DNA of 43,820 nt, taken from positions 1-43,820 of the forward strand of contig CAIOLW010000274.1 of NCBI GenBank assembly GCA_903859215.1, read 5' to 3'. This DNA comes from an uncultured bacterium. GTDB taxonomy: Bacteria > Krumholzibacteriota > Krumholzibacteriia > LZORAL124-64-63. A program made the translations under genes and the position numbers. The notes beneath the pieces are model-generated. The model was not told where the DNA came from. It saw only the letters and a list, made by a program, of their open reading frames with translations, and did no database searches. Shown in pieces: positions 10,718 to 14,690 of this stretch; the first letter of the stretch is position 1; each line of letters opens with the position of its first letter.

Positions 10718-10770
10718 CCAGGCTGAAAGACAATTTTCTGCGGCGTCACGCAATTGTCACGTGTCTTGCA

Positions 10771-10803
10771 AGCGGCTCCCGACGGGAGCCGCTTCAATTT
10801 TGT
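10771..10803 (+). terminator. Rho-independent terminator after the AAA+ ATPase
   Basis: Perfect 10-bp stem AGCGGCTCCC (10771-10780) / GGGAGCCGCT (10784-10793), loop GAC, followed by TCAATTTTG. It separates the ATPase transcript from the cytochrome operon. Confidence 0.75.
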
Positions 10804-10943: not shown

Positions 10944-11954
10944 GTGGCGCTCAACCCGAACCGAGAGGTTTCCACTTTGGACGCTGACTTCAGGAAATTG
11001 TCATGGTTCGTGGGTGGCCTGCTGTGCTGTGCCCTCGGGGTGGCGTGGAACGTCACACCGCTGGGAGCCGCCGAGGCTGCCACGGACGCTGGCGGAACAG
11101 GCCAGACCCAGGTCTGCCTGGACTGCCACGATGGTCAGGCGGCGAAGCTGGCCGCCAGCCCGCACCGCGTGCTGATGGGGGCGGCCGGAGACGTGGCCAC
11201 CCGCATCTCCTGCACCAGTTGCCACGCCGGCAAGCCGGCCCACTGGCAGGACGACCCGTCGGCCAACCCGATGCCGAACCCGGCCAAGCTGGGCGCCAAG
11301 GAAGTGGCCGCCATCTGCGCGACCTGCCACCAGGGCGCCCACCAGGTCAATATGCAGACCCTCAGCGCGCATGCCGCGGCGGACGTGTCCTGCACCGCCT
11401 GCCACAGCGTGCACGAGGGCACGGCCAAGGGCCTGCTGCACGAGTCGCAGCCGGAACTGTGCTTCGGGTGCCATACCGGCGTCCGCGGCCAGTTCGCGCA
11501 GCTGTCGCACCACCCGGTCGAGGAAGGCGGGGTCCGTTGCACGGACTGCCACCTGTCCGGTGACGACGGCATGGCCGGCGCGGTCCGCCGCGACGTGAAC
11601 GCCACCTGCGGCAAGTGCCACGCCGGCATGCGCGGGCCGTTCCCGTACGAGCACGGCGCGACCCTCGACTACTCGGTCGAGGACGGCGGCTGCCTGAACT
11701 GCCACGACCCGCACGGGTCGGCGCAGCCGGTGCTGCTGAAGCAGCCCTATGCGGCGCCGAACTTCCAGCTGTGCTCGCAGTGCCATACGGTGCCGGGCCA
11801 CAGCATGAACATCATGCACGGCAACCGCTGGGCGGGCATGGCCTGCAACGAATGCCACGTGGACGTGCACGGCTCGTACACCAACCGGCTCCTCCTGACA
11901 CCCGCGCTGCAGTCACAGGGCTGCCTCGCGATCGGGTGCCACGGCGGCCACTAG
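10944..11954 (+). CDS. Periplasmic decaheme c-type cytochrome, DmsE/MtrA family
   Basis: 336 residues from the GTG at 10944. A TTG at 10977 with GAGAGG 8 bases upstream is an equally credible start and gives a tighter signal peptide (core WFVGGLLCCALGVAW). Ten CxxCH heme sites begin at Cys58, 90, 125, 150, 173, 199, 222, 250, 277 and 301. The C terminus adds CLAIGCH (327-333), a C-x4-CH motif that could hold an eleventh heme. Length, heme number and even spacing fit MtrA/DmsE, the periplasmic heme wire that threads into an outer-membrane porin. The next gene is a barrel of the right kind and the third a multiheme lipoprotein, so a porin-cytochrome complex is the natural reading. The alternative is a soluble periplasmic shuttle. 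No terminal reductase gene such as dmsA is adjacent. Confidence 0.88.
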   Translation: MALNPNREVSTLDADFRKLSWFVGGLLCCALGVAWNVTPLGAAEAATDAGGTGQTQVCLDCHDGQAAKLAASPHRVLMGAAGDVATRISCTSCHAGKPAHWQDDPSANPMPNPAKLGAKEVAAICATCHQGAHQVNMQTLSAHAAADVSCTACHSVHEGTAKGLLHESQPELCFGCHTGVRGQFAQLSHHPVEEGGVRCTDCHLSGDDGMAGAVRRDVNATCGKCHAGMRGPFPYEHGATLDYSVEDGGCLNCHDPHGSAQPVLLKQPYAAPNFQLCSQCHTVPGHSMNIMHGNRWAGMACNECHVDVHGSYTNRLLLTPALQSQGCLAIGCHGGH

Positions 11955-11966
11955 AGGGGGTGCGGA

Positions 11967-13553
11967 ATGCGTAACCAAAGCATCAGAAATGACCTGAAGC
12001 GGATCGTGGCGGTCAGCCCGTTGCTGATCGTCGTCCTGGCCCTTGCGCAGCCGGCCCTCGCCGGCACGGTCGGGGGCACGCTCGAGGTCGGCAAGGTGTA
12101 TGTCGAGAAGACCGCCGGCGACGCGAGCACGATGCCCGAGTTCTGGGAAGTGTACGACGGGTTGAATTTCTCCCGCCTGAACTTCGACGGGACGACGGGC
12201 AACCGCACGGCCTTCCACCTGGACGTCCGCGACCTGTCCGCCCACGGCGGCCAGGGCCTGTTCACGTGCCGGGTGGCCGACCTCGGCTCGTTCAGCGTGC
12301 GTCATCACCAGTCCCGGCAACTCTACAGCGCGGACGACCAGGTCCGCGCCGAGCGCCATGACTGGAATTTCAGCGCGAACGTGACGCCGAGTCCGAAGGT
12401 CCGCTTCACGGCCGAGTACGGCCGCCAGGCGCGCGAAGGCGACCGCTGGGCCACGCCCGACGGGACCATCTCGGCGCTCGGGACCGGGTACGACTACCTG
12501 CTGCAGACGCGGTTCCTGGAGGGCGAGTACCGCGGGAACGGTCGTATGTTCGCCGTCGGCCTGGAGGGCTCCAGCCTGACGGACGACCTGCACGCGGGCA
12601 TGGACCGTTCCGGGAGCATCATCTCGGCGCGCGCCAGCCTGCCGTGCCTGCTGTTCCCGGGCAAGGTGACCCACTTCGTGCGCGCCTCGTACGGCACGCA
12701 GGGGCTGGACCACACGGGCATCGACTGCACGACGTCGGCGTTCCAGTACTTCGGCACCGTGCGGGCCTCGGATGACGTCGACCTGCGCTACCGCTTCGAC
12801 GCCAGCCGGATCAAGAGCGACACCACGCACCTGCAGACCGACCGCCTCCGCAACGACGTCGACGTGACCTGGCGTCACGCGAAGGGCTCGTTCTTCGCCG
12901 GTTACGGCTACGCCACGACCGACGATGACAAGACCCTGACCGACACGAACACGTGGCGGGTCGGCGGCGCGTACCACGATCCGCGCTGGCAGCTCCGCGC
13001 CAGCTACGCCACGAGCGAAAAGAACGACCAGGAGAGCCTGACGCTGCTGAAGGACGTGGAGTCCAGTCGCTGGCGGGCCAGCGCCCAGGCCAAGGTGAAC
13101 GACCGGTTGACGGTCGGCGGCGCCTTCCTGCAGCGCGATCGCGACTATCCGATCCTCGACGTCACGGCCAGCGGGAAGCGCTACAGCGGCTTCACGCGGC
13201 TGGCGATCGCCGAGTGGGGGACGGCCTCGGTCGAGTACGCCTACAGCGACGACCAGTACGTGGACCAGGTCGGCGCCTACCGCGCCGACAACAGCACCGT
13301 GACGGCCCGCGTCGACCTGACCGGCGTCAAGAGGCTGCGCCTCGGCGGCGGGGTCACGTACCTGGACCTGGGCAAGGACATGGACGTCGAAAAATCCATC
13401 GTGACGTTCGACGGCAAGTACGACCTGAACAAGGACTACTTCGTGAGTGTGCGCTACAACGTGTACAACTACGACGATTTCGTCCTGCTCGACCGTTACT
13501 TCACGACGAACGTCGTCTCGCTGAATGTCGGTTACAAGTTGCCTGTGGACTGA
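11967..13553 (+). CDS. MtrB/PioB-like porin of the cytochrome conduit (putative)
   Basis: 528 residues with an N-terminal signal peptide (core SPLLIVVLALAQPALAG, mature start near residue 33). The rest is almost entirely alternating polar and aromatic beta strands with short turns (for example ATSEKNDQES, YSDDQYVDQV), ending VVSLNVGYKLPVD, a plausible last barrel strand. MtrB of Shewanella is nearer 700 residues, so this is shorter, and I do not see the N-terminal CxxC of MtrB. The assignment rests on barrel-like sequence and on its place between a decaheme MtrA-type cytochrome (12 bases upstream) and a hexaheme lipoprotein (37 bases downstream). MtrB-type porins sheath the heme wire across the outer membrane. 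RBS GAGGGGGTG precedes the ATG. A generic outer-membrane barrel is the alternative. Confidence 0.65.
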   Translation: MRNQSIRNDLKRIVAVSPLLIVVLALAQPALAGTVGGTLEVGKVYVEKTAGDASTMPEFWEVYDGLNFSRLNFDGTTGNRTAFHLDVRDLSAHGGQGLFTCRVADLGSFSVRHHQSRQLYSADDQVRAERHDWNFSANVTPSPKVRFTAEYGRQAREGDRWATPDGTISALGTGYDYLLQTRFLEGEYRGNGRMFAVGLEGSSLTDDLHAGMDRSGSIISARASLPCLLFPGKVTHFVRASYGTQGLDHTGIDCTTSAFQYFGTVRASDDVDLRYRFDASRIKSDTTHLQTDRLRNDVDVTWRHAKGSFFAGYGYATTDDDKTLTDTNTWRVGGAYHDPRWQLRASYATSEKNDQESLTLLKDVESSRWRASAQAKVNDRLTVGGAFLQRDRDYPILDVTASGKRYSGFTRLAIAEWGTASVEYAYSDDQYVDQVGAYRADNSTVTARVDLTGVKRLRLGGGVTYLDLGKDMDVEKSIVTFDGKYDLNKDYFVSVRYNVYNYDDFVLLDRYFTTNVVSLNVGYKLPVD

Positions 13554-13590
13554 TCCACGTTAGAAACGACCGGTACAAGGAGGAATCGCA

Positions 13591-14622
13591 ATGTCGCTGA
13601 CTCGCAAGCATCTGCTGATCTTGGTCGGCCTCGTGGGCCTGCTGGCCCTGACCGCCTGCACCAGGGAAATCACGACCGTTGTGCAGGAAGAGCCGCAGCC
13701 TTCGACGTGCTTCGAATGCCATTCGGACTCGGACCTGAAGGTTGTCTACGCGGAAGAGCAGTGGGCACTGAGCAAGCACGGCGAGGGCGAGACCCTGGCC
13801 GAGGGCGCGCAGGCCGGCTGCGTGCGCTGCCACTGCAACGAGGGCTTCATCCAGTACGTGGCTGACCCTGCCCGCCTGACCTACGAGGCCACGAACAGCC
13901 CGTCGAACATCGGCTGCTTCACGTGCCACGCGCCGCACTCGAACGGCAACTTCGGCCTGCGCATCACGACGCCGCAGCCGCTGCTGAACGGCGTCTCGTT
14001 CGACCTGGGCGAAGGCAACGGCTGCGTGGTCTGCCACCAGGCCCGCCGCGACGTCGCCGTGTACATCACCGCCAGCAACAGCATCAACAGCCGCTACGGC
14101 CCGCACCACGGCCCGCAGGGCGATATGCTGCTGGGCACGAACGGCTACGAGTACGCCGGCTACACCTACGGCGACACTCCGTACCATCGCGAGATGAACG
14201 AGGACGGCTGCGTGAACTGCCATATGCGCACGGTCGGCCTGGACATGGGCGGCCACACGTTCAACGTGACCGCAGTCAACGAAGAGACCCTGGCCGAGAC
14301 GTTCAATGTCAATGCGTGCAAGGGCTGCCACACCGACATCGGCTCGGACTTCGACTTCAACGGCGTGCAGTCCGAAGTGGACGCGCTGGGCCTGCAGCTG
14401 CGCGGCCTGCTGGTCACTGCCAACCTGATGGTCGAGAGCCCGGCCGGCAGCGGCATCTTCGTCCCGAAGACCGCCAGCGGCGTTTCCGCCGGCAATGCGG
14501 GCGCGGTCTGGAACTACATGTACGTCATGGTCGAGGACAAGAGCCACGGCGTGCACAACCCGGACTACGCGCGTGACCTGCTGCAGTCGGCGATCAACTA
14601 CCTGACCCCGACGGTCCAGTAG
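13591..14622 (+). CDS. Hexaheme c-type cytochrome lipoprotein
   Basis: 343 residues behind a near-perfect ribosome site (AAGGAGGA, 13578-13585). A lipoprotein signal peptide ends in LLALTAC with Cys23 as the lipidated residue. There are six CxxCH sites at Cys40, 77, 109, 145, 207 and 243. A cytochrome-type C-terminal segment (HGVHNPDYARDLLQSA) is shared with many multiheme cytochromes, where its His can be a distal heme ligand. No Asp follows the lipid Cys (it is Thr), so nothing favours inner-membrane retention and surface display is possible. As the third gene after an MtrA-like cytochrome and a porin it is the likely outer, electron-delivering partner, in the role of MtrC/OmcA but smaller (those have ten hemes and about 670 residues or more). 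The downstream terminator closes the operon. Confidence 0.85.
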   Translation: MSLTRKHLLILVGLVGLLALTACTREITTVVQEEPQPSTCFECHSDSDLKVVYAEEQWALSKHGEGETLAEGAQAGCVRCHCNEGFIQYVADPARLTYEATNSPSNIGCFTCHAPHSNGNFGLRITTPQPLLNGVSFDLGEGNGCVVCHQARRDVAVYITASNSINSRYGPHHGPQGDMLLGTNGYEYAGYTYGDTPYHREMNEDGCVNCHMRTVGLDMGGHTFNVTAVNEETLAETFNVNACKGCHTDIGSDFDFNGVQSEVDALGLQLRGLLVTANLMVESPAGSGIFVPKTASGVSAGNAGAVWNYMYVMVEDKSHGVHNPDYARDLLQSAINYLTPTVQ

Positions 14623-14656
14623 TCGCACTGCCCGGCGTTTCGGCCGGGACGGTGAA

Positions 14657-14690
14657 GCGGGCGGTCTTCGGGCCGCCCGCTTTCGTTTTC
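14657..14690 (+). terminator. Rho-independent terminator closing the cytochrome operon
   Basis: 10-bp stem GCGGGCGGTC (14657-14666) / GGCCGCCCGC (14671-14680) with one G-U pair and a TTCG tetraloop, then TTTCGTTTTCCC. It lies 35 bases after the hexaheme gene. Confidence 0.85.

Follow-up and report, generated by a model that had tools for sequence, protein, structure and literature searches.

A predicted eleven-heme porin-cytochrome conduit with an OcwA/NrfA-related outer lipoprotein in Krumholzibacteriota

Introduction

Does an uncultured member of the Krumholzibacteriota encode a route for electrons across its outer membrane, and from which proteins would such a route be built? The question is raised by three adjacent genes in the window, i.e., the whole stretch of 43,820 nucleotides analysed here, which is contig C274 of a 4.33 Mb draft genome. 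A preliminary description of this DNA proposed a compact MtrCAB-like conduit, consisting of a decaheme cytochrome, a reduced barrel and a six-heme lipoprotein. A literature search of open-licence papers retrieved no description of this conduit arrangement in Krumholzibacteriota.

Gene organisation

The three genes, here termed wire, barrel and hexaheme lipoprotein, are found in the order and at the places previously described, with gaps of 12 bases between wire and barrel and 37 bases between barrel and lipoprotein (Table 1). The signal sequence of the second protein and the lipoprotein nature of the third, with its six CXXCH motifs, were likewise confirmed. The hairpins that had been reported to bound the triplet are present, and they constitute the two plus-strand terminator sites of a scan in which 3.5 terminator-like sites are expected by chance on both strands together. 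Hairpins and gene order point to a separate transcription unit, while the promoter scan gave no consensus promoter for the plus strand.

Table 1. Features of the conduit locus (positions refer to the window).
Feature	Position	Strand	Remarks
Upstream terminator-like hairpin	10770..10794	+	11 pairs, T-rich tail
Eleven-heme MtrA/DmsE-related periplasmic/transmembrane cytochrome (wire, P0001)	10944..11954	+	336 aa from GTG; 10 CXXCH and 1 CX4CH
Predicted eleventh heme site (CX4CH) of the wire	11922..11942	+	residues 327-333 (C327, C332, H333)
Barrel gene (P0002)	11967..13553	+	528 aa; no heme motif; N-terminal signal sequence; 26 predicted strands, MtrB fold
Hexaheme lipoprotein gene (P0003)	13591..14622	+	343 aa; 6 CXXCH; proposed outer-surface cytochrome
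Lipobox of the hexaheme protein	13648..13659	+	L20-T-A-C23, from sequence
Downstream terminator-like hairpin	14654..14683	+	13 pairs, T-rich tail

The start of the wire gene is uncertain, since the codon aligned with the GTG at 10944 reads E or T in the nearest relatives; the downstream protein sequence is conserved. An in-frame TTG at 10977 or 10998 may be the true start instead. Judged by homologues in the same order in other genera and by dN/dS ratios below 1, all three are real genes and not chance open reading frames.

The wire

By sequence, the first protein is clearly a homologue and close relative of the MtrA/DmsE family, placed just under its cut-off. It scores 180.8 bits (E 3e-53) with TIGR03508, the MtrA/DmsE decaheme family, for which the curated cut-off is 192.2 bits, and matches NF041028 with an E-value of 9e-47, below the cut-off of that model. 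The MtrA chain in the PDB, 6r2q_A, is matched at E 1e-25, and a profile of the wire aligns with Photobacterium MtrA in hhalign (99.9%, 3e-35). Chain 6r2q_A carries the label cystathionine beta-synthase in the PDB sequence file.

The decaheme assignment of the preliminary description was correct for the ten CXXCH motifs, the number required of the MtrA/DmsE family, and incomplete in that a predicted eleventh heme site, a CX4CH extension, sits C-terminal to heme 10. Both cysteines and the histidine of this site are invariant in 17 of 17 relatives, one of which carries a plain CXXCH there and thus has 11 CXXCH (L011/L026). CX4CH is an established heme-attachment site in tetraheme cytochromes c3. 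Eleven histidines outside the motifs are conserved in at least 15 of the 17 rows of the alignment. Together, the invariance of CX4CH, its known role in cytochromes c3 and the eleven conserved free histidines make it likely that the wire carries an eleventh covalent heme. Bis-His ligation is predicted from the conserved histidines: with eleven of them for eleven hemes in the wire, and six for six in the hexaheme protein, every heme can be bis-His.

The CX4CH extension is absent from sister decahemes of the same phylum, which end after heme 10, and the eleven-heme proteins all lie on one side of a fully supported branch (100/99) in the cytochrome tree. As heme 10 of MtrA is the one that meets MtrC in the 6R2Q structure (PMC7198977), the extra C-terminal heme of the wire should, by analogy, point towards the outside.

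The barrel

No family model recognises the barrel protein by sequence. It has no match to TIGR03509 (MtrB/PioB) at E<1 and none to NF041027 (GSU2204-type), PDB sequence searches with the protein and its profile returned nothing relevant, and the hhalign comparison with Photobacterium MtrB gives 20% over 77 columns. Across the phylum, TIGR03509 yielded zero matches, controls included, which shows only that this profile misses these barrels.

Given this lack of a sequence-level link, the relationship to MtrB rests on the predicted fold. An AlphaFold2 model built from a 12-row alignment has 26 strands, a pLDDT of 82.8 and a pTM of 0.71. Its top fold match in the PDB is MtrB (6r2q_B) with an E-value of 5e-16, a TM-score of 0.78 on the query and a rmsd of 5.7 over 658 columns, and the runner-up follows at 3e-8. 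An MtrB fold is thus well supported by the model. The porin call, which the preliminary description had named as its weakest link, is borne out in this way and now ranks as the firmest part of the proposal, and the comparison with MtrB/PioB suggested there failed with sequence profiles and succeeded with the predicted fold.

It may be objected that the protein is an unrelated large porin or receptor which lies between two cytochrome genes by chance. Such a barrel would also lack a sequence-family match, and LptD and TonB-dependent receptors do match the model by fold, albeit more weakly than MtrB. However, the E-value of MtrB is better by some eight orders of magnitude and its strand number is equal, and the barrel is in strict synteny with the cytochrome genes, so a chance neighbour is very unlikely.

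MtrB is a 26-strand barrel with extracellular loops reaching about 45 Å, and it has the negatively charged outer face of MtrB-family porins (PMC7198977). In the model, the face with the longer loops, presumed to be the outer one, has a mean loop length of 6.4 residues and a net charge of -16. Across 12 relatives, the loops of this face carry net charges of -9 to -18, and the opposite face is near 0. According to the model, the barrel is smaller mainly through short loops and not through fewer strands. The earlier term "reduced" is therefore apt for the loops, but not for the strand number, which is 26 as reported for MtrB.

The hexaheme lipoprotein

The third protein contains six CXXCH motifs and six further invariant free histidines, and Cys23 of its lipobox is invariant in 15 relatives. 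Its sequence profile identifies it as a member of the OcwA/NrfA superfamily that is not MtrC-like. The nearest solved structure is OcwA (6i5b), matched with an E-value of 7e-12 over positions 57-329, the C-terminal helical part included; matches to NrfA and octaheme reductases have E-values of 1e-7 and weaker. OcwA, a relative of NrfA, acts as a terminal reductase at the cell surface (PMC6703420). The structure model of the hexaheme protein is poor (pLDDT 61), and its fold-search matches all have E > 0.3, the top ones being NrfA-type.

An assignment as an MtrC/OmcA-type cytochrome was considered and rejected. The protein has six hemes, and its alignment with MtrC (hhalign, 48%) covers only 69 columns around the heme motifs. 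The match to the Pfam MtrC/F domain is marginal (E 1e-7, 32.2 bits, cut-off 30).

The protein could also be an NrfA-like enzyme, e.g., a nitrite or hydroxylamine reductase, that is fed through the wire and does not serve as a transfer cap. OcwA, NrfA and octaheme nitrite reductases are its best solved relatives, and OcwA itself reduces nitrite slowly (PMC6703420). Against this, the sequence holds no CXXCK, and with six invariant free histidines for six CXXCH, an open heme for catalysis is not evident. In OcwA, by contrast, the distal position is open at two hemes (PMC6703420). An enzymatic role is thus considered improbable.

Conservation and selection

Related records bear the titles Candidatus Krumholzibacteriia, Eisenbacteria, Gemmatimonadota and Latescibacterota. 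Of 80 genomes of the phylum, 15 contain the barrel; the four genomes of the genus all do. A strong hexaheme match (E < 1e-130) was obtained in 11 phylum genomes, and in all 11 the hexaheme gene adjoins that of the barrel. Synteny of the triplet extends over several genera of Krumholzibacteriota and to some genomes titled Eisenbacteria and Gemmatimonadota, as expected if the genes stay together in relatives, a point on which the earlier proposal had been made to depend. The three conduit genes are common to nearly all compared loci, whereas the flanking genes (5'-nucleotidase, ClpX-like ATPase, PTS IIA, RsgA) are shared only within the genus. Thus, the triplet is a conserved unit.

The outer member of this unit is exchangeable. 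In the deepest branch (L014), the pair of eleven-heme cytochrome and barrel is followed by an eight-heme lipoprotein (L014:3202-4350). Another locus (L026) lacks the hexaheme gene and has a gene for a nine-heme protein about 1.7 kb further on.

Within the genus, dN/dS is lowest for the wire (0.18-0.22), higher for the barrel (0.28-0.37) and reaches 0.28-0.59 in the hexaheme lipoprotein. In known systems for extracellular electron transfer (EET), cytochromes rank in the same way, from those facing the periplasm to those at the surface (PMC12977616). By this analogy, the rise from wire to lipoprotein supports surface exposure of the latter.

Electron supply and direction of flow

Family searches of the genome provided an inventory of other cytochromes, which may be incomplete. 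One locus (L068) encodes a six-heme protein with a NapC/NirT-type region, 66% identical to the product of a gene that is divergent from the conduit and about 215 bases away from it in a relative (L018). Two further proteins (L070 and L074), with 19 and 11 hemes, are CbcL-like, i.e., a multiheme c-domain is fused to a formate-dehydrogenase-gamma-like cytochrome b; the former is 46% identical to a protein near the conduit in L026. By sequence type, the NapC/NirT-like and CbcL-like proteins are candidate quinol-oxidising cytochromes for the conduit. Together with the conduit, they would provide an encoded route from quinol through the periplasm to the outside.

The genome also encodes very large multiheme proteins with 20, 31 and 42 CXXCH motifs. 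The one with 42 motifs (L069:8603-11749, contig C36) comprises 1049 aa, the motifs forming doubled-CXXCH repeats, and three more multiheme genes with 6, 7 and 7 hemes lie within about 10 kb. The other two, with regular repeats, are neighbours in overlapping frames (L071:2205-6490, contig C43).

Because the wire belongs to a family named after DmsE, the triplet might be read as a DmsEF-like conduit that supplies a terminal enzyme outside the cell, e.g., a DMSO reductase, and in which the hexaheme protein acts as wiring. No molybdoenzyme was found in the flanking genes scanned around the conduit, and the genome has a single molybdopterin (PF00384) match, which is a complex I subunit resembling NuoG. 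The earlier observation that no DMSO reductase gene is adjacent is upheld, and a family search of the genome found none either. This reading is therefore extremely unlikely.

COX1-type (heme-copper) oxidases are encoded in the same genome, and the organism can probably also respire oxygen. Given these oxidases, and since the organism is known from metagenomes only, EET need not be its main mode of respiration. The oxidases also lend some weight to a conduit that runs inward, in which they would be fed with electrons taken up from a donor outside the cell, e.g., Fe(II), as in PioAB/MtoAB. Systems with an MtrAB core are known in both directions (PMC8805035). The dedicated outer lipoprotein cytochrome, which serves export in characterised MtrCAB, and the CbcL-like and NapC/NirT-like candidates on the quinol side speak against inward flow, although neither is decisive. 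Overall, an inward conduit is regarded as a minor possibility.

Proposed function

The reading best in line with these data, held with a probability of about 0.8, is that the triplet is an outer-membrane porin-cytochrome conduit which works like MtrCAB and exports electrons. The MtrCAB-like conduit originally proposed is retained insofar as a wire of the MtrA/DmsE family is conserved as a unit with a barrel of MtrB fold and an outer lipoprotein cytochrome; the cap, however, is OcwA/NrfA-like and no shortened version of MtrC. The eleven-heme cytochrome would thread through the slim 26-strand barrel and move electrons across the outer membrane, and the additional C-terminal heme, placed past the tenth (exit) heme known from MtrA, would extend the wire to the outer face. 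There, the hexaheme lipoprotein, presumably an OcwA/NrfA-derived bis-His cytochrome, would cap the wire on the cell surface and hand electrons to an extracellular acceptor. Quinol would be the electron source, via the NapC/NirT-like and CbcL-like cytochromes, whose genes lie at other places in the genome. The order and conservation of the genes, the family of the wire, the predicted fold of the barrel and the count of heme motifs and histidines are shown by the data; we infer the complex formation, the surface location, the direction of flow and the acceptor in this scheme.

On balance, there is a slight preference for regarding the triplet as a separate class of conduits centred on Krumholzibacteriota and neighbouring phyla. 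This class would combine an MtrA-like wire with eleven hemes, a barrel that has the MtrB fold, minimal loops and a sequence too distant to be recognised, and an exit cytochrome of the NrfA/OcwA lineage that does not derive from MtrC, the cap being swapped for other cytochromes in the deepest branches. If true, a little-studied uncultured phylum gains an EET route that is missed by curated MtrB and MtrC profiles. The joining of an MtrAB core to an OcwA/NrfA-type cap would link the surface reductases of Gram-negative and Gram-positive bacteria. Furthermore, the short-loop barrel would suit structural work as a minimal scaffold.

Comparison with known systems

The Uet undecaheme pathway of Tenderiales and Gallionella (PMC10734462) also includes an 11-heme cytochrome, a barrel and a smaller extracellular cytochrome, a likeness in described composition. 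It differs in its triheme, peptidylprolyl-isomerase and NHL-repeat genes, none of which are seen here.

The GSU2203/GSU2204-type decaheme-barrel pair resembles the locus in that the wire matches NF041028. The wire nevertheless stays below the cut-off of this model, the barrel lacks an NF041027 match, and those decahemes have no CX4CH extension. A true GSU2204-type barrel (NF041027, E 2e-160) is found beside another decaheme in a relative of the same bacterial family (L108). Further MtrA-type decahemes occur in other genomes of the phylum (L105-L109), each followed by an open reading frame of barrel size (about 610-645 aa); in L107, this frame has no match among NCBIfam models.

OcwA of Thermincola potens (6I5B), the best solved match of the hexaheme profile, shares the NrfA-type C-terminal helical part with the hexaheme protein. 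In contrast to the latter, OcwA has nine hemes, two of them with open distal positions, and is seated, with no barrel, on the cell wall of a Gram-positive bacterium.

MtrCAB of Shewanella (6R2Q) has the same overall composition, namely an MtrA-family wire, a 26-strand barrel with a negative outer-loop face and an outer lipoprotein cytochrome, encoded by adjacent genes. The wire described here has 11 predicted hemes compared to 10 in MtrA, the barrel of 528 aa has short loops and no detectable sequence similarity to MtrB, and the outer cytochrome is hexaheme, with the gene order A-B-cap. As regards family membership, sequence profiles do not place the barrel with MtrB despite the shared predicted fold, and they assign the cap to OcwA/NrfA and not to MtrC.
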